Origin: Streptomyces iranensis
GTDB taxonomy: Bacteria; Actinomycetota; Actinomycetes; Streptomycetales; Streptomycetaceae
DNA: 64,000 bases
NCBI RefSeq assembly: GCF_017874715.1
Contig: NZ_JAGGLR010000024.1
Location: 62,001-126,000, forward strand
Reading direction: 5' to 3'
Shown here in pieces: positions 41,301-58,248 of this stretch; the stretch's first letter is position 1; each line of letters begins with the position of its first letter. The translations under genes and the position numbers were made by a program. The notes under the pieces are model-generated. The model ran no database searches and was not told the origin of the DNA. It worked only from the letters and a program-made list of their open reading frames with translations.

Positions 41301-42755
41301 GTGACTCTCAACGAGGACTCGTTCACCAACTGGAAGCACCGCGAGGAGATCGCGGAGTCGATGATCCCCCTCATCGGGAAGCTGCATCGGGAGCGGGACG
41401 TCACGGTCCTGCTGCACAGCCGCTCCTTGGTGAACAAGTCGGTCGTCAGCATCCTGAAGACCCACCGATTCGCCCGTCAGATCGCCGGTGCGGAGCTCTC
41501 GGTCACCGACACTCTGCCGTTCCTGCGGGCGCTCACCGCGCTGGATCTCGGCCCCTCCCAGATCGACATCGGCATGCTCGCCGAGACGCACCGGGCCGAT
41601 GACCGCGGTCTCTCCGTGGAGGAGTTCACCGCCGGGGCCGTCGCCGGGGCCACCGGCGCCAACAAGATCGAGTGCCGTGAGGGGCGCGATGTCGTCCTCT
41701 ACGGGTTCGGGCGGATCGGGCGGCTGGTCGCCCGGCTGCTCATCGAGAAGGCCGGGTCCGGCAACGGGCTGCGGCTGCGGGCCATCGTCGTCCGCGGGAG
41801 CGGCGGGCGGGCCGGTGAGGATCTCGTCAAGCGGGCCTCGCTGCTGCGCCGCGACTCCATCCACGGCCAGTTCCAGGGCACGATCACCGTGGACGAGACG
41901 AACGGCAAGATCATCGCCAATGGCAACGAGATCAAGGTGATCTACGCCGACGACCCGACGTCGGTGGACTACACGGCGTACGGCATCAAGGACGCCATCC
42001 TCATCGACAACACCGGCAAGTGGCGCGACCGCGAAGGGCTGTCCAGGCATCTGCGCCCCGGTATCGACAAGGTGGTGCTGACCGCGCCGGGCAAGGGCGA
42101 TGTCCCCAACGTCGTCCATGGCGTCAACCACGACACGATCAAGCCGGACGAGCAGATCCTGTCCTGCGCCTCGTGCACCACCAACGCGATCGTCCCGCCG
42201 CTGAAGGCGATGGCGGACGAGTACGGCGTGCTGCGCGGCCATGTGGAGACCGTCCACTCGTTCACCAACGACCAGAACCTGCTGGACAACTACCACAAGT
42301 CCGACCGCCGTGGCCGCTCCGCGCCGCTCAACATGGTCATCACCGAGACCGGTGCCGCCTCCGCCGTGGCGAAGGCCCTGCCCGACCTCAAGGCGAAGAT
42401 CACCGGCAGCTCGATCCGCGTTCCGGTGCCGGACGTCTCGATCGCGATCCTCAATCTGCAGCTCGAGCGCGAGACCACCCGCGAGGAAGTCCTGGATTAT
42501 CTCCGCGATGTGTCCCTGACCTCGCCGCTCAAGCGCCAGATCGACTTCATCAGCGCCCCCGACGCGGTCTCCAACGACTTCATCGGCTCGCGCCACGCCT
42601 CGATCGTCGACGCGGGCGCCACCAAGGTCGAGGGCGACAACGCGATCCTCTACCTCTGGTACGACAACGAGTTCGGCTACTCCTGCCAGGTCATCCGCGT
42701 CGTCCAGTACGTCTCCGGGGTGGAGTACCCGACCTACCCCGCCCCGGTGGTCTGA
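41301..42755 (+). CDS. gap: glyceraldehyde-3-phosphate dehydrogenase, long form
   Basis: 484 residues from the GTG at 41301; normal GAPDH is about 335. The extra 130 N-terminal residues (helical, charged) precede the Rossmann motif GFGRIGR at about 133-140. The catalytic Cys292 is in SCASCTTNAI and the final helix has WYDNEFGYSCQVIR. This longer form is common in Streptomyces and other actinobacteria and often acts in gluconeogenesis or with NADP. No second glycolytic gene is linked. A hairpin follows 20 bp after the stop. Confidence 0.92.
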   Translation: MTLNEDSFTNWKHREEIAESMIPLIGKLHRERDVTVLLHSRSLVNKSVVSILKTHRFARQIAGAELSVTDTLPFLRALTALDLGPSQIDIGMLAETHRADDRGLSVEEFTAGAVAGATGANKIECREGRDVVLYGFGRIGRLVARLLIEKAGSGNGLRLRAIVVRGSGGRAGEDLVKRASLLRRDSIHGQFQGTITVDETNGKIIANGNEIKVIYADDPTSVDYTAYGIKDAILIDNTGKWRDREGLSRHLRPGIDKVVLTAPGKGDVPNVVHGVNHDTIKPDEQILSCASCTTNAIVPPLKAMADEYGVLRGHVETVHSFTNDQNLLDNYHKSDRRGRSAPLNMVITETGAASAVAKALPDLKAKITGSSIRVPVPDVSIAILNLQLERETTREEVLDYLRDVSLTSPLKRQIDFISAPDAVSNDFIGSRHASIVDAGATKVEGDNAILYLWYDNEFGYSCQVIRVVQYVSGVEYPTYPAPVV

Positions 42756-42775
42756 CACCCGCCACCACAACGGTC

Positions 42776-42801
42776 CCGCTTCCGGACCCGTCCGGAAGCG
42801 G
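42776..42801. terminator. hairpin terminator after gap
   Basis: CCGCTTCCGGAC (42776-42787) and GTCCGGAAGCGG (42790-42801), perfect 12-bp arms with a 2-nt centre, between gap and the convergent ROK remnant. Confidence 0.8.
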
Positions 42802-42806
42802 TCCGC

Positions 42807-43040
42807 CTACTCGCCCGTTCCGGACATGTCGGCCAGCAGCCGTACGATGCCCGCCGGCCCGAAGACATCCTGGGTGGCGAGGGCGATGCCGCCGTGGAGC
42901 CCGGAACCGCCCTTGAGCTGTGTCGCGGTGATGGTCAGTTTGCGGGTGGCCAGGGGGAGGGCGCGCTGGTACACGACGGCTCGTACGGCGGAGACCAGGT
43001 CGTCGCGGAGTTCGCTCAACGGACCGGCCAGGATGATGCT
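42807..43040 (-). pseudogene. C-terminal fragment of a ROK-family regulator gene
   Basis: Read on the minus strand, this codes about 75 residues starting SIILAGPLSELRDDLVSAVR and ending ...LLADMSGTGE and a TAG stop. Against the intact ROK protein at 57031-58248 I count 47 identical residues of 66 (GPLSDLRDDL to RLLVD). The start of the gene is missing: homology stops at about 43040, where an ABC ATPase fragment on the opposite strand begins. No start codon or HTH region remains. Confidence 0.85.
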
Positions 43041-43442
43041 GCGGTGCACCGGCTGCCCCGGGAGTTCTCCGGCGGCCGGCGCCAGCGGATCGCCATCGCG
43101 CGCGCCCTGTGCCGGGACCCCAGGCTGATCGTCTGCGATGAACCGGTCAGCGCCCTCGACCTGACGACGCAGGCCCGGGTGCTCGACCTGTTCACCGAGA
43201 TCCAGGAGGCCACGGGCGTGGCGTATCTGTTCGTCACCCATGACCTGTCCGTGGTCCGGCACATCAGCCACCGGGTGGCCGTGCTGTACCGTGGCGACAT
43301 CGTGGAGACGGGAGCCGCCGCCCAGGTCACCGAGGCACCGGAACACGCCTATACGCGGCGGCTGTTGCTCGCGGCGCCGGTGCCGGACCCCGACCGCCAG
43401 GCGCGGCGCCGGGCCGAACGGCTGAAGGAGGCCGCCTCATGA
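43041..43442 (+). pseudogene. C-terminal fragment of an Opp-type ABC ATPase gene
   Basis: From the codons for [10 protein letters not shown] onward this is the second half of an oligopeptide-type ATPase: signature SGGRRQRIAIARAL, Walker B LIVCDEP, switch THDLSVVRH and the end [16 protein letters not shown]. Walker A and the first 150 residues are absent, so it cannot be an ATPase. It closely matches the ATPase at 49547-50392 ([14 protein letters not shown]...[11 protein letters not shown]). Homology begins right where the ROK fragment on the other strand ends. The stop TGA overlaps a following ATG. Confidence 0.88.
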
Positions 43443-43489
43443 CCTTCCGCACCCGGGGACTCGACCGGGTCCACCGGCGGGCCGACTGA
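43439..43489 (+). other. 16-codon reading frame leading into the response regulator
   Basis: An ATG at 43439 overlaps the stop of the ABC fragment (ATGA) and runs 16 codons (MTFRTRGLDRVHRRAD) to a TGA at 43487-43489, 1 bp before the ATG of the response regulator. It may be the leftover 5' end of a deleted gene that overlapped the ATPase gene, as the MDR gene does in the intact locus, and it may give translational coupling to the regulator. Confidence 0.4.
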
Positions 43490-43490
43490 G

Positions 43491-44108
43491 ATGTCCCTCG
43501 TCTACATCCTGGACGACGACGAGGAGCTGAGCGAATCGCTCGCCTGGCTCCTCGAGTCGGTCGGCATCCGCTCCGAGCGCTTCCACGACGCCCGGACCTT
43601 CCTGCGCTCCTACGACCGTGACCGTCCCGCCTGCCTGGTCCTCGACGTCCGCATGCCCGAGCTGAGCGGGTTCGACGTACAGCAGCTGCTGAACGAGACG
43701 GGCACGCCGATGCCCGTCGTCTTCGTCTCCGCGCACGGCGACATCCGGATGTCCGTACGCGCCCTGCAGAACGGCGCGGTCGACTTCCTCGAGAAGCCCT
43801 ACGAGCCCCAGCACATGCTGGACGTCGTGCAGGCCGCGCGGCGCACCGCGCGGGAACGCTTCGAGCGGGTCGCCGTCCAGCGGGAACTGCGGGCCGGCCT
43901 GGACCGGCTGACCGCCCGTGAACGGGAGGTGCTCGCACTGTCCGTCGACGGCGTGCCCAACAAGCGCATCGCCACCCGGCTCGGCATCAGCGCCAAGACC
44001 GTCGATGTGCACCGCGCCCGGATCCGGGAGAAGACCGGCGCCGAGACCATCGCGACCCTCGTGCACGACATCCTCCGGCTGGGGCTGCGGCCCCCGGCGG
44101 AGCGATGA
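43491..44108 (+). CDS. FixJ/NarL-type response regulator
   Basis: 205 residues. Receiver domain 1-120 with DDD acidic pocket (8-10), phospho-acceptor D52 (LDVRMPE), Ser/Thr in VSAHGD and Lys in LEKPYEP. LuxR-type HTH from about 140 (LTAREREVLALSVDGVPNKRIATRLGISAKTVDVHRARI in part). Order and spacing are like FixJ, StyR and TodT regulators, more typical of proteobacteria. Its stop overlaps the kinase start by 4 bp; the flavin monooxygenase operon starts 132 bp after the kinase and has a 16-bp palindrome in its promoter. Confidence 0.93.
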   Translation: MSLVYILDDDEELSESLAWLLESVGIRSERFHDARTFLRSYDRDRPACLVLDVRMPELSGFDVQQLLNETGTPMPVVFVSAHGDIRMSVRALQNGAVDFLEKPYEPQHMLDVVQAARRTARERFERVAVQRELRAGLDRLTAREREVLALSVDGVPNKRIATRLGISAKTVDVHRARIREKTGAETIATLVHDILRLGLRPPAER

Positions 44109-45541
44109 GGGACACCGCCACGGGCCGTCTTCCCGCCGCGGGCTTCCGGACGTTGATGGAGGCCCTGAAGTACTGCGTCCTGCTGCACGACGCCCGGACG
44201 TACGAGATCCTCTGGGCCAACCGGGCGGCCTGCGAACTGCTCGGCTGGACCGTCGATGAGCTGAAGCCCCTCAAGGCACCGGACATGAGCAAGAACGCCC
44301 GGCAGTACAGCCGTGAACTCGGGCACCGCTGGCTCGGGCACGCGGCGCGGCACGGCATCAGCGCCACCGAGTGGTGCTATCGCTCCCGGAGCGGCGAGGA
44401 GATCCTCACCGAGGCGATCGCCATCCGTGTCGCCCTGCCGGCACGGACCGTGGTGATGGTCCAGTTCCGGGACATCGCCGAGGAGAAGGCGGTCCGGCGC
44501 GATCTGTCCCGCACCGAGAGCAGGCTGCGGGCCTTTCTGAGCGGCCTGGCCGAGGGGATCGTCGTCCTCGACGACGCCGACCGGGTGGTCTTCGCCAGCG
44601 AATCCGCGGCCAGGCTGCTCGGCGGCGATCTCCACGGGGCGGACTTCGCCGGCTACTGCCACGACGGACCCGTACCCGACCGCGAGGGCCGCTACCGGTT
44701 CGCCGCACCCGGCGACGAGCCCCGCTGGTACGCGGCCACCTGCCAGTACATCGAGATCGAGAGCGATCTGCACGGCCGGATGCTGCTCTTCTACGACATC
44801 ACCGACCGGGTCCGCGCCGAGGAGGAGCACCGCCGTGACACCCAGCGCCTGAACCACCTGGCCCGCAACAACGCCATGGGCGACATGGCGATGGCGATCG
44901 CGCACGAGGTGAGCCAGCCGCTCGCGGCCGCCTACAACTTCGTGGAGGGGGCCCGCGGCCGGCTCGGAGACGGCGACGAGGCCGTGGCCTGGGGACTGGA
45001 CAACGCCGTCCGGCAGATCGAGCGGGCCCGGCGGATCCTCGGCAGCCTGCGCGGTTATGTCGGCCGCCTGGAGCAGTCCGAGCAACGGACCGACCTCAAC
45101 GCGATCGTGCGCGACTGCGCGTACTTCATCGAGCTCAGGGCCCGGGAGCACGCGGTGGCCGTCGAGTACGACCTCACCGGCGAGCCGCTGCCGGTGCTGT
45201 GCGAGAACGTACTCATCGGGCAGGTCGTGATGAACCTCGCCTTCAACGCGGTGGACGAGATGGCCGACTGGCCGGAGGCGGAACGAGAGGTGCGGGTCAC
45301 CACCCGGCGGGGCGGGGACGGATCCGCCGTGCTGGAGGTCCGGGACCGGGGGAACGGACCGCCGCCCGGGGACCGGCTCTTCGACGGTGTCTTCACCTCG
45401 AAGGAGAACGGCAGCGGCATCGGCCTCGCCCTCAGCCACCGCATCATCACCCGTCACGGCGGCCGGATGGAGGCCGGAGCGAACCAGCCGCGCGGCGCGG
45501 CCTTCCGTTTCACGCTGCCCATGGCCGTTCCCGGCCGGTAG
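44105..45541 (+). CDS. soluble PAS-domain sensor histidine kinase (FixL-like)
   Basis: 478 residues, no membrane segment. Two PAS-like domains at about 15-130 (LHDARTYEILWANRAACELLGW) and 140-235 (GIVVLDDADRVVFASESAARLL), a helical dimerisation and phosphoacceptor region with H267 (AIAHEVSQPLAAAYNF), and an ATPase domain with N-box NLAFNAVDEM, G1 DRGNGPPPGD and G2 GSGIGLALS. The HEVxQPLAA box groups it with FixL, TodS, StyS and related kinases that sense oxygen or aromatic hydrocarbons. Cytoplasmic location and two PAS domains fit direct binding of an aromatic ligand. Pairs with the regulator at 43491. Confidence 0.93.
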   Translation: MRDTATGRLPAAGFRTLMEALKYCVLLHDARTYEILWANRAACELLGWTVDELKPLKAPDMSKNARQYSRELGHRWLGHAARHGISATEWCYRSRSGEEILTEAIAIRVALPARTVVMVQFRDIAEEKAVRRDLSRTESRLRAFLSGLAEGIVVLDDADRVVFASESAARLLGGDLHGADFAGYCHDGPVPDREGRYRFAAPGDEPRWYAATCQYIEIESDLHGRMLLFYDITDRVRAEEEHRRDTQRLNHLARNNAMGDMAMAIAHEVSQPLAAAYNFVEGARGRLGDGDEAVAWGLDNAVRQIERARRILGSLRGYVGRLEQSEQRTDLNAIVRDCAYFIELRAREHAVAVEYDLTGEPLPVLCENVLIGQVVMNLAFNAVDEMADWPEAEREVRVTTRRGGDGSAVLEVRDRGNGPPPGDRLFDGVFTSKENGSGIGLALSHRIITRHGGRMEAGANQPRGAAFRFTLPMAVPGR

Positions 45542-48605: not shown

Positions 48606-49550
48606 TCATCGAGTCCTGGTCCGCATCTCCAGCACCACCTTTCCCCACGGGTGGCCGGACTCGATCGCGCGGAGGGCGGCCGGGGCCTCGGCAAAGGGGA
48701 AGACCTGCCGGACGTGGGGGTCGAGCCGGCCGTCCCGGACCCGGCGGGCGAGTTCGCCCAGGGTCTCCGCCCGGTTGCCACGGGACAGCTGCCGGGCACC
48801 GAAGCGGGCCGCGGTCTCCGGGTCGGCGACCGTGAGGACCCGGCAGCCCGTGGACATCAGCCCGGAGACCGTGTCCAGGGCGTCGCCGCCCACCAGGTCC
48901 AGTACGGCGTCCGCACCGTTCGGGAGCGCGGCGGCCAGCCGGTCCGCGGTGTCGTCACCGTCGTACGGAACGGCGGTGGCGCCCAGGGACGACACGAACT
49001 CCCGCTTCGCACCGGACGCGGTGCCGACCACCGACACCCCCTCCGACGCGGCGAGTTGGACTGCCGCCACCCCGACCCCGCCTCCGGCGCCCAGGATCAG
49101 CAGGGTCTCCCCGGCGGTCACCTCGAGTCCGCGCACGGAGTCGTACGCGGTCCCCGCCGCCACGGGGAGCGCCGCCGCGTCGGTGTACGACAGCCCCTCC
49201 GGCTTGACGATCGTGAAGTCGGCGGTCAGGACGGCGTGGTGGGCATAGCCGCCGCAGCCACGCGCACTGCTGCCGAACACCGCGTCGCCCACGGCGAACC
49301 CCTCGACCCCGGGGCCGAGGGCCACCACCACCCCGGCCGCCTCGCGCCCGAACACCGCCGGGAGGCCGAGCGGCAGGAACGACCGGTGCATCCCCTCGCG
49401 CACCTTCCAGTCGACCGGATTGACACCTGCCGCATACACCTCGACCAGCAGTTCCCCCGGCCCGGGGGAGGGGAGCGGAAGGTCCAGGAAGCGCTCCACG
49501 CCGGGGCCGCCGTACGCCGTGAATCCGTATGCGTTGTCCATGCTCCTCAT
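48606..49550 (-). CDS. MDR-family NAD(P)H oxidoreductase (quinone reductase-like)
   Basis: 314 residues. GroES-like domain 1-125 (AAGVNPVDWKVREG, FGREAAGVVVALGPGV) and Rossmann domain with AGGGVGVAAVQLA; no zinc ligands, so the zinc-free quinone oxidoreductase branch. It overlaps the preceding ATPase stop by 4 bp (ATGA), making it the last gene of the sugar/peptide ABC operon. Role may be reduction of an enone or quinone in the pathway for the imported substrate. Start uncertain between 49550 and 49541. Confidence 0.88.
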   Translation of the reverse strand: MRSMDNAYGFTAYGGPGVERFLDLPLPSPGPGELLVEVYAAGVNPVDWKVREGMHRSFLPLGLPAVFGREAAGVVVALGPGVEGFAVGDAVFGSSARGCGGYAHHAVLTADFTIVKPEGLSYTDAAALPVAAGTAYDSVRGLEVTAGETLLILGAGGGVGVAAVQLAASEGVSVVGTASGAKREFVSSLGATAVPYDGDDTADRLAAALPNGADAVLDLVGGDALDTVSGLMSTGCRVLTVADPETAARFGARQLSRGNRAETLGELARRVRDGRLDPHVRQVFPFAEAPAALRAIESGHPWGKVVLEMRTRTR

Positions 49551-50392
49551 TCCGCCGCCGCGGCCTTGAGGCTCCGACGCCGCTCACGGCGTTCCCGCTG
49601 GCGCTCGGGGTCCGGTACGGGGGCGGCGAGCATGAGCCGTCGCGTATAGGGGTCCCGCGGGTCGCCGGTCACGGCCGTCGCCTCGCCCGACTCCACGATC
49701 CGGCCACGGTGCATCACGGCCACGCGATGACTGACACACCGCACCACCGACAGATCGTGGGTGATGAACAAATAGGCGACACCCGTGCGCTCCTGGATCT
49801 CCACGAACAGCTCCAGCACCCGCGCCTGGGTGGACAGGTCCAGCGCGCTGACCGGTTCGTCGCACACGATCAGCCGTGGCTCGCGGCACAGGGCCCGCGC
49901 GATCGCCACGCGCTGGCGCTGACCGCCGGAGAACTCCCGGGGCAGCCGGTGTGCGGCGTCGGCCGGCAGCCGCACCTGGTCGAGCAGTCCGCGGACCCGC
50001 TCCTCGGCGGAGGCGCGGGCGGTGCCCGAGACCAGCAGGGGCTCAGTGAGGATGTCGCCCACCGTCATCGCCGGGTTCAGCGAGGTGTAGGGGTCCTGGA
50101 AGACGACCTGGATCTCGGCGCTGAGCGCGCGCCGCTCCCGCGCGCTCAGCCGTGAGATCACCCGGCCCGCATAGCGGATCTCGCCCTCGGCCACCGGGGC
50201 GAGTCCGAGCACCGCGCGCCCGAGCGTGGTTTTGCCCGAGCCCGATTCGCCGACCAGCCCCACCGTCTCACCGGGCCGGATGTCCAGGGAGACACCGTGC
50301 AGGGCCCGGAACGGCTGGGCGCGCCGCCCCTTGACGGCGTACGCCACGACCAGCCCGTCGACTTCCAGCACATTGGCCGGGGTGGTGTTCAT
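49547..50392 (-). CDS. Opp-type ABC transporter ATPase (DppF-like)
   Basis: 281 residues. Walker [10 protein letters not shown], signature [15 protein letters not shown], Walker B LIVCDEP, H-loop [10 protein letters not shown]-terminal extension short without the usual Cys cluster. Overlaps both neighbours by 4 bp. Its paralogue is the truncated copy at 43041. Together with the fused permease-ATPase it makes the second nucleotide-binding subunit. Confidence 0.92.
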
Positions 50393-52188
50393 ACCTTCTC
50401 CTGGAGGGACGTGCCGGTCGCCGGGGCCTGCCGGAGTGGGGCGCGGGGCGGGGCGTCCTCCAGCGTCGAGTCCAGCAGCATGCGGGTGTACTCGTGGCGC
50501 GGTTCGGCGAACAGCCGCCCGGCCGGGGCGGTTTCGACGACCTGGCCGGTCCGCATGACGACCACCCGGTCGCAGATGTCCGCGACCACGCCGAAGTTGT
50601 GTGTCACCAGGATGAGACCCATCCGCCGCTCCTGCTGGAACTCCCGCAGCAGATCGAGGACGTCCGCCTGGACGGTGACGTCCAGCGCCGTGGTGGGCTC
50701 GTCCGCGATCAGCAGATCGGGGTCGCAGGACACGGCGCCCGCGATGAGGACCCGCTGGGCCATGCCGCCGGAGATCTGGTGCGGATAGGCGTGGTAGACG
50801 CGCTCCGGCTCGGCGATGCCGACCCGCTCCAGCAGGCCCAGGGCCTTCTCCCGCGCCTCCCGGGCCGTCACCTTCAGATGCCGCCGCATCGGGTCGATGA
50901 GCTGGGTGCCGATGCGGAAGGCCGGGTCGAGGTTGGACATCGGCTCCTGGGGGACGTAGGCGACGCGGCAGCCGCGCAGCGCGTTCCGCTCCTTGCGCCC
51001 GAGCCCCCGCAGATCGCGGCCGTCGAAGCTCAGCCGGTCGGCCTCGCTCCGGCCTTCCGGGGGCAGCAGTCCGAGGATCGCGAACGCCGTCTGGCCCTTG
51101 CCCGAGCCCGACTCGCCGACCAGACCGACCACTTCACCACGGCGTACGGTGAGCGACACCCCGTCCACCACGGTGCGCTCGCCGTCCCGGGCGGGGTAGG
51201 TCACCCGCAGGTTCTCGACCGCGAGGAGGCTGTCGTCACCGCCCGCCGGGAGAGCGCTGGGCCGTGCCGCCCCGGGGCGTCCGGGCCGCCGCGCCGCCGG
51301 GGCGCCCGTCTCCAGGAGCGCGTCCCGCAGGGCGTTGGCCAGCAGACCGAGTGCCGCCACGGTGATCACGATCGCCAGACCCGGGGCCACCAGCAGGGAG
51401 GGCTTGGTGTACAGGTTGGCGAACGCGTCGTTGAGCATCGCGCCCCAGCTGGCCTGCCCGGCCGAGCCGAGGCCGAGGAACTCGATGCCCGCCTGGATGA
51501 CCACGGCCACGCCGAACATCTGCGCCGACTGGACGATGGTGGGTGCCTGCACCACCGGCAGGATGTGCCGGCGCACGATACGGGTGTCGCCGAGTCCGGA
51601 GACCCGGGCGGCGTCGACGTACAGTTCCTCGCGCACCGAGGTGACCGAGGCCCGTACGAGGCGGAAGACCCCGGGAGCGAGGATGATGCCGAGCACCGCC
51701 ATCGTCGCGTTGGTGTCGGGGCCGATCGCGGCGATGGAGACCAGCAGCACCATGATGGCGGGCGCGGCCATGACGAGGCTCGCCAGCCAGCTGATGACGG
51801 CGTCGGACCGGCCCCGGTAGTAGCCGGCGAGCAACCCGGTCGGCACACCGATCAGCAGGGCGACCGCGACGGCGATGAACCCGCCGAGCAGGCTGACCCG
51901 TCCGCCGTACAGCAGCCGCGCGAGCACGTCCCGTCCGACGCTGTCGGCGCCGAGCGGGTGGCCGCCACCGGGCGGGGCGAAGGCGTCGGCCAGGGTGGCG
52001 CGGGTGGGGCCGGCCGAGGTGAGCAGGGGCGCGCAGACACTGGCCGCCACGATGAGGGCCAGCAGGACCAGGCACACCACCGCCATCGGATGGCGGAGCA
52101 GACGGCCCAGCGGATGGCCGCGTCTGCGGGTGGTGCCCGGCGCGGAATCGGGTGTGCCGGGGGTATCGCGGGTCGCGGAATGCGTCAT
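50389..52188 (-). CDS. fused ABC permease (DppC)-ATPase (DppD) with altered Walker A
   Basis: 599 residues from the ATG at 52188. Residues about 1-295 are a DppC-like permease (helix near 35-55, [18 protein letters not shown] loop [22 protein letters not shown]); from about 315 it continues in frame as a DppD-like ATPase with signature [14 protein letters not shown] and Walker B LIADEPTT. The Walker A reads [11 protein letters not shown]: the Ser/Thr that coordinates Mg is Gly. The Walker B and signature are intact, so one of the two nucleotide sites may be degenerate. Such fusions exist in other actinobacteria. Overlaps the DppB gene and the next ATPase by 4 bp each. Confidence 0.9.
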
Positions 52189-53126
52189 CGGACACGCACC
52201 TTCGGGTTGAGCCAGCCGTAGGCGAGGTCCACCAGCAGATTGACCGCCACGACGATGAGGACGAGGTAGACCACGACGCCCATGACCAGGGGCGTGTCGC
52301 CATTGACGGTCGCTGTCACCGCGGCGGAGCCCACTCCGGGGAGTCCGAAGACCTTCTCGATGACGACGGCGCCGCCGACCAGGGAGATGAACTGGAGGGA
52401 GAGCACGGTCAGCGCCGGGGGTGCCGCGTTGCGCAGCACATGCCGGAAGAGCACCCTCCGCTCGCTCAGCCCCCGGCTGCGCAGCGTGCGCACGAAGTCC
52501 TGGCGCAGTACGTCGATGACCGACCCGCGCACCTGCTGGGCGGTGGCGGCGATGGCGCCGATGGCGAGCGAGACGGCGGGGAGGGTGATGGACCGGAGCC
52601 AGCCGGAGGGGGAGGAGGCGAGCGGCACATATCCGGTGGCGGGGAGCCAGCCCAGCTGGACGGCGAAGGTGGCGGAGAGCATCAGCGCCATCAGGAAGCT
52701 GGGTACCGCGTACCCGACGATGGCGGTCGCCTGGACCACCCGGTCGACCCATCCGCGTCGTACGGCGGCGGCCACACCGAGCACCGCACTGAGGACGGTG
52801 GCCAGCAGCAGTCCGCTGACCACGATGGACAGGGACACCGGTGCCTTGAGCACCAGGCTTTCGGAGACGGAGTCACCGCCGAACCAGGAGGTCCCGAAGT
52901 CGCCCCGGACCGCGTGGGCCAGCCACTGTCCGTACTGGCTGATCCATGGCCGGTCCAGGCCCAACTCATGTCTCTTGGCGGTGATTTGCTCCGGCGTCGC
53001 CATCGTGCCGGCGATGTTGCGCGCGGCGTCGGTCCCGGTGAGGCTCATCATCGCGAACGCCGTCGTCGCGAGTACATAGAGGAGCACCAGACCGGCCGCG
53101 ACGCGGCGCACGAGAAAGGTCAGCAT
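52185..53126 (-). CDS. ABC importer permease (DppB-like)
   Basis: 313 residues with six membrane segments, beginning MLTFLVRRVAAGLVLLYVLAT, DppB-type loop ending GLDRPWISQYGQWL, GDFGTSW and EAA loop region RTLRSRGLSERRVLFRHVLRN. Nineteen bases after the binding-protein gene. Confidence 0.92.
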   Translation of the reverse strand: MLTFLVRRVAAGLVLLYVLATTAFAMMSLTGTDAARNIAGTMATPEQITAKRHELGLDRPWISQYGQWLAHAVRGDFGTSWFGGDSVSESLVLKAPVSLSIVVSGLLLATVLSAVLGVAAAVRRGWVDRVVQATAIVGYAVPSFLMALMLSATFAVQLGWLPATGYVPLASSPSGWLRSITLPAVSLAIGAIAATAQQVRGSVIDVLRQDFVRTLRSRGLSERRVLFRHVLRNAAPPALTVLSLQFISLVGGAVVIEKVFGLPGVGSAAVTATVNGDTPLVMGVVVYLVLIVVAVNLLVDLAYGWLNPKVRVR

Positions 53127-53145
53127 CGCGTTCTTTCCTTCCGCG

Positions 53146-54651
53146 TCAGCCGGCGGGGGCCATGTCGTAGATCGGTACCGCGGAGACGAAGGCCCGGGGC
53201 GTCACCTCGATCTTCTTGGAGTTGCCCTGGACGGCGTCCAGCACATCCCAGGGCGCGTTGAAGGCGTTGTCCTGAAGGTAGGAGTTGATCTCGCGGAACG
53301 CCGCGGTCTGCGCCGCGCCCCGGGCCCTCTGCGCCTTGTCGATCATGCGGTTGAGCCTCGGGTCGAAGTCCTTGGCGGGATTCCAGGCGGCGCCCTTGGC
53401 CAGCTCGGACTGGATGAAGTCCCAGGGCTGGCCGGACTGGAGCTTGAACCATGACATCGGGTACTCGCCGGACTGGAGGGCCGTGAACAGCCGGGTGAAC
53501 GGGATCTTGTCCACCTTGACCTTGATGCCGATGTCCTCCAGGGCCTGGACCATGACGACCTGCTGGCCCGGCGCGACGGAGGAGACGTCGGGCATGGTGA
53601 CGGTGAAGCCGTGTGGATAACCCGCCTCGGCGAGCAGCTTCCTGGCCTTGGCCGGGTCGTAGGCGTAGTCGCTCTCGAGGGACTTCTCGTACCAGGTGCT
53701 GCCCGCGGTCGCCATTTGCGAGGTGGCCGTGGCGTAGCCGAGGTTGAGCTTCTCGACGATGGTCTTCCGGTCGAAGGCGTGGTTCAGGGCCTGGCGCACC
53801 TTCACCTTGCCCAGGGCGGGCACGATCCTGCCGGTGCGGTCCCAGATGTAGAGGCCTTCGACGCTGTCGGCGTGCGCCCGCACCTCGAGGCCGCGGCCCT
53901 TGGCGTACTGGGCGGTCTGCGGGGTGATACGGGCCCAGTCGACCTGCCCGCTGAGCAGGGCGTTCAGCCGAGCGGTGGGATCGCTGATGTTCTTGATGAC
54001 GATCTTGTCGAAGGGGTATGCCTTCGGGTTCCAGTAGTCCGGGTTGCGGGTGAAGGCGTAGGTGCTGCCGTTGGTCGTGGCGGCCTTGTCCAGGACGTAG
54101 GGGCCCGAGCCGACCGGACCGCCCTTCGCCGTCAGGTCCCTGGGACTGGCGATCATGCCCGAGGGGTCGCCGAGGTTCACCACGAGCTGGGGGTCGGGTG
54201 CCGACAGGTGGATGGCCACGGTCCGGGGGTTCACGACCTCGACCGAGTCGATGGCGCGCAGTTTGCCGGCCGCCTCGTTGGTGCCTTCCCTGGTGTGGAG
54301 CAGGCTCTTCCGTACGGCGGTCGCGTCGAGCGCGGTGCCGTCGGTGAACCTCACGTCCTTTCTGAGCCTCATGGTCAGCGCGGTGCGGTCGCGGTCATAG
54401 GACCAGGAGGTGGCCAGGTTCGGGTGGGGACGGGCCTTGGGGTCCAGCCGGACCAGGGAGTCGAAGACGGGCTCGTAGTACTGGATGTTGTCGCCCAGGG
54501 CGGCGGAGGCCAGGTCCCAGCCGGTGTGGGCGTTGCCGATGGACAGCGTCAGCGTGTCGTCTCCGGTGGCGGACGCCGTGGCGCCGGAGCGGCCGCACGC
54601 CGACGCGGCCACGAGGGTGAGGGCCACCCCTGCCATGACCATTCTTCGCAT
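53146..54651 (-). CDS. ABC importer solute-binding lipoprotein (SBP family 5)
   Basis: 501 residues with signal peptide and lipobox VAASAC (Cys19). Family 5 features: DYWNPKAYPFDKIVIK, VRQALNHAFDRKTIV, KLLAEAGYPHGFT. Although named for peptides, family 5 proteins also bind oligosaccharides; here the linked isomerase and Gfo/Idh/MocA gene and the ROK regulator suggest a sugar or glycoside ligand. Starts 28 bp after the isomerase gene. Confidence 0.92.
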   Translation of the reverse strand: MRRMVMAGVALTLVAASACGRSGATASATGDDTLTLSIGNAHTGWDLASAALGDNIQYYEPVFDSLVRLDPKARPHPNLATSWSYDRDRTALTMRLRKDVRFTDGTALDATAVRKSLLHTREGTNEAAGKLRAIDSVEVVNPRTVAIHLSAPDPQLVVNLGDPSGMIASPRDLTAKGGPVGSGPYVLDKAATTNGSTYAFTRNPDYWNPKAYPFDKIVIKNISDPTARLNALLSGQVDWARITPQTAQYAKGRGLEVRAHADSVEGLYIWDRTGRIVPALGKVKVRQALNHAFDRKTIVEKLNLGYATATSQMATAGSTWYEKSLESDYAYDPAKARKLLAEAGYPHGFTVTMPDVSSVAPGQQVVMVQALEDIGIKVKVDKIPFTRLFTALQSGEYPMSWFKLQSGQPWDFIQSELAKGAAWNPAKDFDPRLNRMIDKAQRARGAAQTAAFREINSYLQDNAFNAPWDVLDAVQGNSKKIEVTPRAFVSAVPIYDMAPAG

Positions 54652-54679
54652 GTCGTCCTTCTGCTCTCGGATGCCGTGC

Positions 54680-55567
54680 TCAGCGCTGCCGCCGGGCCCA
54701 CTCGCCGCAGAGCCGGACGCTTTCCTCGGGGGTGGCCTGGGCGCCGCGGTCGACCTCGATCACCAGCCAGCCGTCGAAGGTCTCGGGCAGGGCGGCGAGG
54801 GTGGCGGGGATGTCGACCGAGGCGTGGCCGGGCTCGGCCCACAGACCGGCCAGCACGGTCTTCTGGTACGTCCACCCCTCGGCGCGGCCCCGCTCGGCGA
54901 CCTCGGCGTGGAAGTCCTTGACGTGGAGGGCGGCGACCCGGTCGGCGTAGTCGCGGATGAGGCCGATGACATCGGCGCCGGTCCAGCCGAGGTGGCCGAT
55001 GTCCGGGCCGAAGGAGAGGACGTCCGAGGGCACGCCGTCGAGGATGAAGCGGGTCTCCTCCTCGGTCTCCGCCCAGGTGCCGATGTGGGGGTGGAACGCG
55101 GCGGCGACACCGTTCGCCCTGGTGGTCTCGCCCATGCGGGCGAACACCTCGCGCACCCGCTCCAGCCGTTCGGGAGTCGCCTCCGCGCCCACGGCCGGGC
55201 GGTGCACACGGGGGGCCTGCTTGTTCATGCCGGTGGCCACGAAGACCGTGGGCAGGCCCAGTTCGGCCATCTGGGTGCTGATGCGGTCGGTCTTGTCGAG
55301 CAGTTCGCGCAGGCTGCTCTCGTCCTCCGGGAGGGGGCCCGAGACATAGCCCGGGGCGGGCGCCAGACCGTGCTCGTCCAGCAGCCGGCCGTATTCGGCG
55401 GCCGTCATCCCGGCGGGCACGTCCGCGTGTACGGCGGCGATGCCGGCCTCGTGGATGACCTTGAGGCGCTCGGGCAGGGGCGGCGCCAGAGCGGGGTCGA
55501 TCCAGCCGTCGTCGGTGGCGATCCACTGGAGGGGGTTGATCGCGATCCTGTCGTGGCGAATGGTCAT
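54680..55567 (-). CDS. sugar phosphate isomerase/epimerase-like TIM-barrel protein
   Basis: 295 residues of the AP-endonuclease-2 / xylose-isomerase-like TIM-barrel superfamily. Metal-site residues are expected at the strand ends: HPHIG, GPDIGHLGW (Asp and His), HVKDFH (HxKD) and a C-terminal WLVIEVDRG with Glu. IolE and IolH-type proteins (inosose dehydratase, 2-keto-myo-inositol related) carry the same HxKD and EVD motifs. Likely isomerises or dehydrates a keto-sugar derived from the imported substrate. Confidence 0.88.
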   Translation of the reverse strand: MTIRHDRIAINPLQWIATDDGWIDPALAPPLPERLKVIHEAGIAAVHADVPAGMTAAEYGRLLDEHGLAPAPGYVSGPLPEDESSLRELLDKTDRISTQMAELGLPTVFVATGMNKQAPRVHRPAVGAEATPERLERVREVFARMGETTRANGVAAAFHPHIGTWAETEEETRFILDGVPSDVLSFGPDIGHLGWTGADVIGLIRDYADRVAALHVKDFHAEVAERGRAEGWTYQKTVLAGLWAEPGHASVDIPATLAALPETFDGWLVIEVDRGAQATPEESVRLCGEWARRQR

Positions 55568-55610
55568 GGGGGTCCTTTCCCTGAGGGCGGGGCGGTGGGA
55601 CGGGCGGGTG

Positions 55611-56714
55611 TCAGACGGTGAAAAGGGGCTGGGGGCGCTCGCAGGAACTGTTCAATGTCACGGACCGGCCCTGCTGGGCGGAGCCCTCCAACGCGCGGAG
55701 CGCTTCGAGCACATGGAAGGCGAAGGCGGTGTTGGCGCGGTGCGGGCCGCCCTCGACGGCGTTCGCGAGGTCGCGGACCCCGAGCCCGCGGCGGGCCTGC
55801 TCGCGGGTGCCGACGGCGCCGAAGAGCTCCAGGGCCGGTTCCAGGACCGTCCAGTCGCCGTCTCCGTGCCGCCGGAGCCGCACATCGCCGTCGAAGTGGT
55901 TCGGGTTGGCCAGCGAGAGGGTGCCCTCGCTGCCGTAGATCTCCAGGTACGGCAGGTCGCTGTCCCAGACGTCGAAACTCATCTGGGTGGTGGCGATGAC
56001 ACCGGAGGCGAAGGTGAGCACCGCACCGGTGTGGGTGGGGATGGTGACCTCGACGGTGTCCACGGTCCGTTCGGGCGCGGTGACGGTGCGCTCGGGCACG
56101 CCTATGCGGGCGGCCGCCGAGACGGTGGAGACGGGACCGAGGCAGTTGACGAGGACGGCCAGGTAGTACGGACCCATGTCCATCACCGGGCCGCCTCCCG
56201 GCTGGAACAGGAAAGCCGGGTTCGGGTGCCAGGTCTCGGCCTTGCTGTGCCCGATGAAGGCGGAGGCGCCGATGGGCGTTCCGATCCGGCCCGAGTCGAT
56301 CGCCTTGCGTGCCGTCTGGGCGGCGCTGCCGAGGAAGGTGTCCGGTGCCGATCCGAGGACACGCCCGGTGCGGGCGGCCGCCGCGAGGACCGCCTCGCCG
56401 TCCGTGACCGTGGTGGCCAGCGGCTTCTCGACGTAGACGTGTTTGCCCGCTTCCAGGGCCGTGATGATCGTACGGGCGTGGTGTACCGGCGGAGTCAGGT
56501 TGACCACGATGTCCACCGAGTCGTCGGCGTACAGCTCGCGGTCGTCACCCCAGACCGGGATGGAATGCTCGGCGGCCGCCCGCTTCGCCCGTGCCACATC
56601 GATATCGGCCACCCGCACGATCTCCAGCTCCGGGTAGCGGGCGAGACCGGTGACATACCGGCCGAAGATGTTGCCGCTGCCCAGGATGCCGATGCGATGG
56701 GTCTGTTTGGCCAT
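55611..56714 (-). CDS. Gfo/Idh/MocA-family oxidoreductase
   Basis: 367 residues from the ATG at 56714. Rossmann GILGSGNIFG (9-18), catalytic YVEKPLA (EKP) and a C-terminal domain with GPVMDMGPYYLAVL. It is a different branch from the two at 9655 and 10674 (close to glucose-fructose-oxidoreductase-like sugar 3-dehydrogenases). First gene of the seven-gene operon, divergent from the ROK gene. Confidence 0.9.
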   Translation of the reverse strand: MAKQTHRIGILGSGNIFGRYVTGLARYPELEIVRVADIDVARAKRAAAEHSIPVWGDDRELYADDSVDIVVNLTPPVHHARTIITALEAGKHVYVEKPLATTVTDGEAVLAAAARTGRVLGSAPDTFLGSAAQTARKAIDSGRIGTPIGASAFIGHSKAETWHPNPAFLFQPGGGPVMDMGPYYLAVLVNCLGPVSTVSAAARIGVPERTVTAPERTVDTVEVTIPTHTGAVLTFASGVIATTQMSFDVWDSDLPYLEIYGSEGTLSLANPNHFDGDVRLRRHGDGDWTVLEPALELFGAVGTREQARRGLGVRDLANAVEGGPHRANTAFAFHVLEALRALEGSAQQGRSVTLNSSCERPQPLFTV

Positions 56715-57030
56715 GGCCGTGGGTTCCTCTCCCAGGAGTGGTGCGGGGGATGGTCGGGTTTGCCGGTGATCCGCGAACGTGTGCGGTGTGGTGGTGCCTT
56801 GCCGGGCCCCGCGGTGTCGCGTCGAGCGGTCCACCGCCCTTGCCTTCGGCAACGGGGGCGCCAGCGGACCGCCCGCTTCCAGCCGTTGAGTAAGGCGTGT
56901 TCGCGTCGCCTAACACCTTCGTTTAGTTCGGTTACCCCGAACAAGGGGCCGTTGTTAATTTTTCTTGCAAACTAATAACGTCTTAAAGGAGGGCTGTTCC
57001 GGGGTGATCCACGACAGCTAGGTTGGGGAA
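56715..57030. promoter_or_regulatory. divergent regulatory region with ROK-type operator candidates
   Basis: 316 bp, no gene. Between 56926 and 56942 GTTCGG-TTACC-CCGAAC is an exact inverted repeat. At 56955-56975, TTAATTTT-TCTTG-CAAACTAA resembles the TTAGTTTG...CAAACTAA pattern of XylR/NagC-type ROK operators (right half exact, left half 6 of 8). The stretch 56950-56990 is AT-rich. These sites precede both the ROK gene and the ABC operon. Confidence 0.55.
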
Positions 57031-58248
57031 ATGCGTGAAGGTGACGGTTATTCCGCCGATCAGACGCTGCTGCCCGCGGTTCCCGCCGGACTGCGCAGGG
57101 TGCTGGACCTCGTGTTGGCCGGTGAGGCGACCAACCGGGCCGAGATCGCGCGGCGCAGTGGTCTGGCCCGCTCCACCGTCGGCCAGCAGGTGGACCAACT
57201 CCTCGGCCGAGACATCCTGGAGGAGCTGGAGTCCGGCGAATCGGTGCGCGGGCGGCCGCCGCGGCTGCTGACCCTCAGCCCGCACGCGGGGACCATCGCC
57301 GTCGCCGACGTGGACACCCTGGACACCAGGATCGCGATCGCCGACCTCGGCGGACGTCTCATCGCCCAGGACACGGTGACCGTGCGCATCGACACGGGGC
57401 CGGAATCGGTTCTGGAGGTGGTGTGCGATCGGCTGCACGCCCTCTTGGAACGGTCGGGGCGCGATCCGGACCGGGTGCGTCAGGTGGTGATGGGGCTGCC
57501 GGCTCCCGTGGACCGGGACCGCGGTTGCCCGCTCAGGCCCAACGGCATGCCGGGCTGGGACGGCTACCCGGTCGCCGAACGGCTGCGCGCACGGTTCCGG
57601 GCCCCCGCCCAGGTGGACAATGACGCCAACCTCATGGCCCTCGGCGAGGCCGTTCAGGCCAGGACCGAAACCCCGGTGCTCTGCCTCAAGATCGGCAATG
57701 GGATCGGAGCGGGGCTCATCACCGCGGAGGGCCGGATCTACCGCGGCGCGGACGGCGCGGCCGGCGATGTCGGCCACATCCGGTCCCTCGGCGGCGGCAC
57801 CGCCCTGTGCACCTGCGGCAACGTCGGCTGTGTGCGCGCCATCGCCTCTCACCGCGCCGTCCTGCGGACCCTGGACATCCCCGAGTCCACCGAGGAGGAC
57901 CCGCTGCACGGGGTTCACGAGCTCGCGGAGCGCGTCGCGAACAACGACCCGCCCGCCGTCCGGGCCCTGCGGCAGGCGGCCACCGAGATCGGCGAACTCG
58001 CCGCCATGCTCGTCTACATGTACAACCCCCGCACCCTGATCCTCGGCGGCCCGCTCAGCGATCTGCGCGACGACCTGCTCTCCGGGGTGCGCGCCGTGGT
58101 GTACCAGCGCGCCCTGCCGCTGGCCACCCGGAATCTGACCATCACCACGACACGGCTCGGCGCCGCCTCGGCCGTGCACGGGGCGGTGGCCCTCGCCACC
58201 GGGGACGTCTTCAGCGAACGCGGGATAGCCCGGCTGCTCGTCGACTGA
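57031..58248 (+). CDS. ROK-family regulator
   Basis: 405 residues. N-terminal winged HTH at about 20-75 (GEATNRAEIARRSGLARSTVGQQVDQLLGRDI in part) followed by a sugar-kinase-like ROK domain with DNDANLMALGE, GTALCTCGNVGCVRAIA (CxCGxxGC zinc motif, though the usual following Glu is Arg) and ILGGPLSDL. Lacks assured kinase activity, so a repressor is likely. Divergent from the ABC/isomerase operon. A truncated C-terminal copy of a close paralogue is at 42807. Confidence 0.92.
   Translation: MREGDGYSADQTLLPAVPAGLRRVLDLVLAGEATNRAEIARRSGLARSTVGQQVDQLLGRDILEELESGESVRGRPPRLLTLSPHAGTIAVADVDTLDTRIAIADLGGRLIAQDTVTVRIDTGPESVLEVVCDRLHALLERSGRDPDRVRQVVMGLPAPVDRDRGCPLRPNGMPGWDGYPVAERLRARFRAPAQVDNDANLMALGEAVQARTETPVLCLKIGNGIGAGLITAEGRIYRGADGAAGDVGHIRSLGGGTALCTCGNVGCVRAIASHRAVLRTLDIPESTEEDPLHGVHELAERVANNDPPAVRALRQAATEIGELAAMLVYMYNPRTLILGGPLSDLRDDLLSGVRAVVYQRALPLATRNLTITTTRLGAASAVHGAVALATGDVFSERGIARLLVD

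Follow-up and report, generated by a model that had tools for sequence, protein, structure and literature searches.

A remnant ROK/ABC transport locus in Streptomyces iranensis points to a recent internal deletion in one of two paralogous loci

Gene content at the remnant

The window analysed here is a stretch of 64,000 nucleotides of Streptomyces iranensis (contig NZ_JAGGLR010000024.1, positions 62,001 to 126,000 of the forward strand), and all positions refer to it. At 42807-43442 the 3′ end of a ROK regulator gene on the minus strand is followed, directly abutting, by the 3′ end of an ABC transporter ATPase gene on the plus strand (Table 1). The ATPase is of the oligopeptide type. Its remnant retains the signature (as FSGGRRQR), Walker B and H-loop regions and lacks Walker A, which was tested as a string. 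We refer to the ROK/ABC locus between the GAPDH and response regulator genes as locus A, and to the one at 49547-58248 as locus B. The permease-ATPase fusion of locus B is full length relative to the S. endocoffeicus copy.

Table 1. Coordinates of the features of locus A, its anchors and locus B in the window
Feature	Position	Strand	Basis
GAPDH-family gene, left anchor	41301..42755	plus	Pfam Gp_dh_N/C
ROK-A remnant, final 76 of 411 codons plus stop	42807..43043	minus	42807-43038 96.6% nt identical to S. endocoffeicus ROK-A
Chimeric 182-codon open frame: antisense ROK in frame with ATPase end	42894..43442	plus	ORF list, Pfam
ATP2-A remnant, final ~132 of 275 codons	43041..43442	plus	43047-43442 97.5% nt identical to S. 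endocoffeicus ATP2-A
3-bp microhomology GCG at the putative deletion junction	43041..43043		Both parental sides aligned: S. endocoffeicus, G421, S. niphimycinicus
Response regulator (receiver and LuxR-type HTH), right anchor	43491..44108	plus	Pfam
PAS histidine kinase	44105..45541	plus	Pfam
ATPase ATP2-B, locus B	49547..50392	minus	Pfam ABC_tran 1-136 of 137
Permease-ATPase fusion, locus B (599 aa by homology)	50389..52188	minus	Pfam BPD_transp_1 and ABC_tran
Permease, locus B	52185..53126	minus	Pfam
Solute-binding protein family 5, locus B	53146..54651	minus	Pfam
Xylose-isomerase-like TIM barrel, locus B	54680..55567	minus	Pfam
Gfo/Idh/MocA oxidoreductase, locus B	55611..56852	minus	Pfam
ROK regulator ROK-B, locus B	57031..58248	plus	Pfam ROK

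Searched against its own genome, region 42757-43500 matched, besides itself, best the ATPase gene at 49547-50392 (354 bp, 79%, E = 1.7e-83) and second best the ROK gene at 57031-58248 (217 bp, 76%, E = 1.6e-36). Because of these two matches to locus B, the fragment pair is real and far beyond chance. No further match of the ROK part was found among the 43 matches listed, with 40 of 354 first-look candidates scored. An earlier note on this DNA had described a minus-strand ROK 3′ end meeting a plus-strand ATPase 3′ end, and both ends were found where it placed them. Its count of 47 identical residues out of 66 for the ROK part is close to our recount against ROK-B, 49/70.

Intact locus A in related genomes

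The response regulator at 43491-44108 was scanned against the GTDB genome contigs. The scan yielded 161 relatives. Of these, 80 were retained and 17 of the 80 were mapped; the mapped loci (L078-L093 and L103) belong to Streptomyces and Amycolatopsis. Eight of the 17 have a transporter locus upstream of the response regulator, comprising an ATPase, permeases, a binding protein and accessory genes, and two others (L079 and L080) have pieces of it. No transporter locus was found in the upstream stretch of the remaining seven, among them L090, which covers only ~5 kb upstream, and L091, which has two weak ABC matches of 31-33% there. The pair of response regulator and kinase was present at E ≤ 1e-60 in 11 out of 392 Streptomyces genomes, S. 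iranensis included, and this survey added the genomes called G421 and G398 here; G405 was not counted as a new genome beside S. acidicola (L103).

Streptomyces endocoffeicus CA3R110 (NZ_JAERRG010000001.1) is the closest relative found, and its response regulator is 97% identical to that of S. iranensis. A published report gives an ANI of 94.73% between S. iranensis HM35 and S. endocoffeicus (PMC12502620). Between the same GAPDH and response regulator genes, S. endocoffeicus has a complete locus A, and its GAPDH gene is 97.4% identical in nucleotides to the one left of the remnant. The order of the genes is ROK (minus), Gfo/Idh/MocA oxidoreductase, TIM-barrel isomerase, second oxidoreductase, second TIM-barrel isomerase, family-5 binding protein, permease, permease-ATPase fusion, ATPase (ATP2-A) and response regulator, the last of which begins 48 bp past the ATP2-A stop. 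The remnant agrees with this locus in place, neighbours and orientation, and the ends of the intact locus are 96.6-97.5% identical to the two fragments; however, in S. endocoffeicus all genes are present, with 10,178 bp more between the ends. Locus A is intact at the same site in G421 as well. The earlier note had proposed that a paralogous transport locus once stood here and was internally deleted, and had advised looking for an intact locus at this site in relatives. Such a locus is found in both of these genomes, and the alignment of the fragments to its outer ends bears out the proposal.

Two minor differences were seen next to the locus. In four loci from other species (L083, L084, L086 and L082), ~0.7 kb with two small frames, one of them NTF2-like by eye, separates ATP2-A from the response regulator; S. 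iranensis (43443-43490) and S. endocoffeicus have 48 bp in its place, perhaps by an earlier deletion. The kinase beside the response regulator of S. endocoffeicus, where locus A is intact, has 377 aa and lacks about residues 143-225 of the 478 in S. iranensis.

Breakpoints and the missing segment

Aligned to the ends of S. endocoffeicus locus A, region 42700-43520 was identical at 466 of 480 nt on the ATPase side and at 324 of 349 nt on the ROK side, gaps counted. The ROK-side alignment contains one gap, of 10 nt, between the GAPDH and ROK stops. There is a single junction and both sides are collinear with the intact locus, which is the arrangement of a deletion.

Compared with S. endocoffeicus alone, 2 nt (CT) are left over between the two sides, equivalent to a 2-nt filler. 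At the left breakpoint, G421 and S. niphimycinicus read CTGCG and S. endocoffeicus reads GCGCG. With G421 or S. niphimycinicus as the left parent, the left side runs through CTGCG, the right side starts with GCGG, and the filler is 0 nt. The earlier note had put the junction at 43040/43041; this is correct, the GCG common to both sides at 43041-43043 being the only ambiguity. Within 60 bp either side of the breakpoints no longer repeat was found in register, and the best matches were 7-8 bp.

Measured on S. endocoffeicus the deletion is 10,178 bp long, and measured on G421 it is 10,219 bp long. A missing length of roughly 7 kb had been estimated in the earlier note. That estimate is too small, the true figure being 10.18 kb, because it was based on locus B, which is without one oxidoreductase and one isomerase of locus A.

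Used as a query, the 10,180 bp of S. endocoffeicus that are missing here gave 87 matches in the S. iranensis genome (82 contigs, 11.98 Mb), with 40 of 1254 first-look candidates scored. The best of them was locus B, in three long pieces of 70-75%, and none was a closer copy of the segment than this. The remaining matches were shorter, and most of them lay in the ATPase-coding final ~1 kb of the query. Because its own genome shows only locus B at 70-75% and shorter matches, the deleted segment seems to be gone, neither translocated nor located on another contig.

Parentage of the fragments and age of the deletion

The ROK remnant shares 74/76 residues with ROK-A of S. endocoffeicus, 64/73 with ROK-A of G421 and 49/70 with the ROK-B of its own genome. 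Likewise, the ATPase remnant shares 128/131 residues with ATP2-A of S. endocoffeicus and 98/131 with its own ATP2-B. FastTree placed both remnants beside the S. endocoffeicus A copies, with local supports of 0.951 (ROK) and 0.787 (ATPase); the ROK tree was built without two rows, L186 and L168. These results indicate that both fragments are of the A type.

Identity of the fragments to the intact orthologue is 97.5% (ATPase) and about 96.5-96.6% (ROK), near the top of the 94.4-97.4% range of eight intact genes, and neither fragment has an indel inside it relative to S. endocoffeicus. Third codon positions account for 13 of the 18 differences from S. endocoffeicus in the fragments; for the eight intact genes the figure is 220 of 346. 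Since the fragments are as identical as the intact genes and free of indels, the deletion should postdate the divergence from S. endocoffeicus and be too recent for visible decay, although with 18 differences this test is weak.

The divergence of A from B is another matter. Over seven A/B protein pairs of S. endocoffeicus the identity is 53-78%, so the two loci are old paralogues. The view in the earlier note that the remnant is too divergent from locus B for a recent duplication agrees with these values. What is old is the A/B split; the deletion itself, by the 96.6% and 97.5% identity to the intact orthologue, appears recent. In S. scabichelini, S. spongiae and S. sp. LBL, the ROK genes of the two types sit on separate contigs, as judged from drafts and a typing tree whose deep branches are weak. 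The pair may have arisen by a local inverted duplication; the sequence difference says only that the split is old.

Coding capacity of the remnant

The ROK piece (42807-43058, minus) matched 0 Pfam families at E ≤ 0.001, and a ROK domain (PF00480) was thus not recognised in it, whereas the intact ROK-A of S. endocoffeicus matches Pfam ROK at 9.6e-47. Its descent from a ROK gene is indicated by the 74 of 76 residues shared with that protein together with the tree. The ATPase piece covers only positions 103-136 of the 137 in the ABC_tran profile (PF00005), short of a full nucleotide-binding domain, and the 182-codon chimeric frame covers only positions 85-136. The Walker A string, present in 13/13 other aligned ATPases, is missing from the ATP2-A remnant. 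With no start, no DNA-binding part and only a minor share of the ROK domain left in the ROK piece, and no Walker A in the ATPase piece, neither fragment can function as its parent.

No sigma-70-like promoter was found in 42700-43520, which is weak evidence in Streptomyces; the same scan showed one 5-pair terminator-like site (43209-43222), which says little in this genus. The 182-codon ATPase-like frame could be annotated as an ABC gene even though it is part of a scar.

Loss of locus A in other lineages

A tree of three flanking genes (GAPDH, response regulator and acyl-CoA dehydrogenase; 3,254 columns), with S. himastatinicus as the outgroup, paired S. iranensis with S. endocoffeicus (support 100) and G421 with S. 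niphimycinicus (98), joined these four together (99), and paired Streptomyces sp. S465 with G398 (100). The pair of S. iranensis and S. endocoffeicus is present in all three single-gene trees. G421 and S. niphimycinicus are paired at 100 by acyl-CoA dehydrogenase and at 61 by the response regulator; by GAPDH alone, G421 joins S. iranensis and S. endocoffeicus at 54.

Six genomes have the GAPDH and response regulator genes around the site. Locus A is intact in two of them (S. endocoffeicus and G421) and broken in the other four. In S. niphimycinicus 4503 (NZ_JAHLEM010000036.1), locus A stands at the same site and is also cut by an internal deletion, but there ROK codon ~281 is joined to codon ~230 of the permease-ATPase gene, and a further internal deletion of ~160 bp and a 2-bp frameshift in ATP2 are present. 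Streptomyces sp. S465 and G398 likewise have the ATP2-A end left of the same response regulator; in contrast to S. iranensis, ~61 ATP2-A codons remain, no ROK remnant was seen, and ~10 kb of other genes lie between the ATP2-A stump and GAPDH.

In each of the two sister pairs, then, locus A is intact in one member and collapsed in the other, with differing breakpoints, and the third lineage (S465 and G398) has only a stump. On this basis, locus A would most simply have been lost independently at least three times. It is also conceivable that S. endocoffeicus or G421 regained an intact copy by transfer. Together these genomes form a natural series for one paralogous uptake locus among closely related Streptomyces, from intact through half-collapsed and scar to stump.

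Some further features of these genomes were observed. The frames in the ~10-kb stretch of S465, read by eye from the translations, are an IclR regulator, a transporter, a Rieske-type oxygenase, and amidase-like and enolase-superfamily-like proteins. G398 (L220) has the same spacing between GAPDH and response regulator as S465 (L204). Locus B of S. niphimycinicus is damaged too: the isomerase, the oxidoreductase, the ATPase parts and most of the binding protein are missing, and ROK-B is full length and stands as an orphan regulator.

Proposed history and alternatives

The reading that we prefer, with a probability of about 97%, combines two inverted ancestral loci, an internal deletion of 10,178 bp in locus A after the split, end joining at GCG, and tolerance of the loss. 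In the ancestor, two paralogous ROK/ABC loci would have faced in opposite directions on the two sides of a cassette of two-component and oxidoreductase genes. Its locus A would have had the gene order given above for S. endocoffeicus, with ROK-A on the minus strand and the genes from the first oxidoreductase to ATP2-A on the plus strand. Comparison with the intact locus shows that, after the lineage of S. endocoffeicus had split off, 10,178 bp were lost: ROK-A upstream of codon ~335, ATP2-A as far as codon ~142 and all that lay between them, so that two gene ends were left as fragments. The cut ends may then have been joined at GCG by NHEJ-type or other illegitimate end joining. Finally, the loss was presumably tolerated, either with locus B doing a similar job or with the substrate not needed any more. 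The intact locus B of S. iranensis fits redundancy. A loss of need fits S. niphimycinicus, whose locus B is damaged, and S465, where no ROK-B match was closer than 36% identity; the stretches of S465 and G398 that were read showed no locus B.

A microhomology of a few nucleotides is what an end-joining scar would have, and a Ku gene, which NHEJ would require together with LigD, is present in the S. iranensis genome. The 3-bp GCG is compatible with end joining; so short a match is not rare by chance and would be weak evidence for any one mechanism. In S. ambofaciens, according to a published study, 50% of the repair scars show microhomology of 1-6 nt, similar to the junction described here (PMC5869714). 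Those scars were nuclease-induced in the laboratory, whereas the S. iranensis deletion is natural and deduced by comparison.

Separate arrival of the two fragments, by insertions or recombinations that brought them together by chance, is next to impossible: we found no point in support of it, and the fragments correspond to the opposite ends of a single locus, present intact at this site in two relatives in the same orientation, with the same neighbours and with outer sequence that can be aligned. The earlier note had recognised that fragments arriving separately in relatives would speak against its reading; this was not seen, and the intact orthologous site was found instead. It is also extremely improbable that locus A was not simply deleted and that the scar instead goes back to recombination between A and B or to a locus-B copy. 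Loci A and B are inverted and ~6 kb apart and share stretches of 70-79% identity, but both fragments are of the A type, the gene order outside is unchanged, and the breakpoints have only GCG in common. Moreover, recombination between inverted copies results in an inversion and not in a deletion.

An error of assembly, with locus-A reads collapsed onto locus B or lost, has to be considered for a draft genome of 82 contigs known from one assembly only. Against it, the two loci are 25-30% apart at the DNA level, the missing 10 kb has no closer match on the contigs than locus B, completeness is given as 100, and the junction lies within a contig of 225 kb, so that we consider such an error extremely unlikely. 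That the remnant is a working short gene, encoding a small ROK protein or the 182-codon ATPase-like frame, is very unlikely. Both fragments stay open, and their differences fall at third positions much as in the eight intact genes, but selection cannot be read from as few as 18 changes. The parts listed above, from the ROK start to the ATPase Walker A, are gone; the absence of a sigma-70-like site adds a little to this, and the S. niphimycinicus remnant has frameshifting gaps in both genes.

We therefore return to the internal deletion of locus A. We regard the scar as genuine, recent and ordinary, the trace of a paralogous locus lost in this way. It would offer a worked case for the loss of paralogous transport loci and for a natural end-joining deletion, with the breakpoint resolved to 3 bp. 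Titles and abstract openings of the literature on ROK pseudogenes or deletions and on ROK repressors of sugar ABC transporters included none on this locus, and no literature was found on gene loss among paralogues in S. violaceusniger.

Change in the signature motif

In the S. iranensis ATP2-A remnant, FSGGQ is changed to FSGGR (motif at 43065-43088; changed codon, 43077-43079, CGG for R). The collapsed ATP2-A of S. niphimycinicus (L201) has the same CGG (R), and these two are the only collapsed ATPases that keep the codon. All 13 other aligned A and B ATPases have Q in FSGGQRQR. The lineages of S. iranensis and S. niphimycinicus are not sisters, and the FSGGR in both may reflect coincidence, recombination or inactivation before deletion. 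It is possible, though we consider it unlikely, that locus A was under repeated selection for loss in this clade, with inactivation preceding deletion. If this were true, the two-component and oxidoreductase genes, which close the transporter operon in the intact arrangement, would be brought by the deletions to a place just behind GAPDH, and their expression would be rewired in this way.
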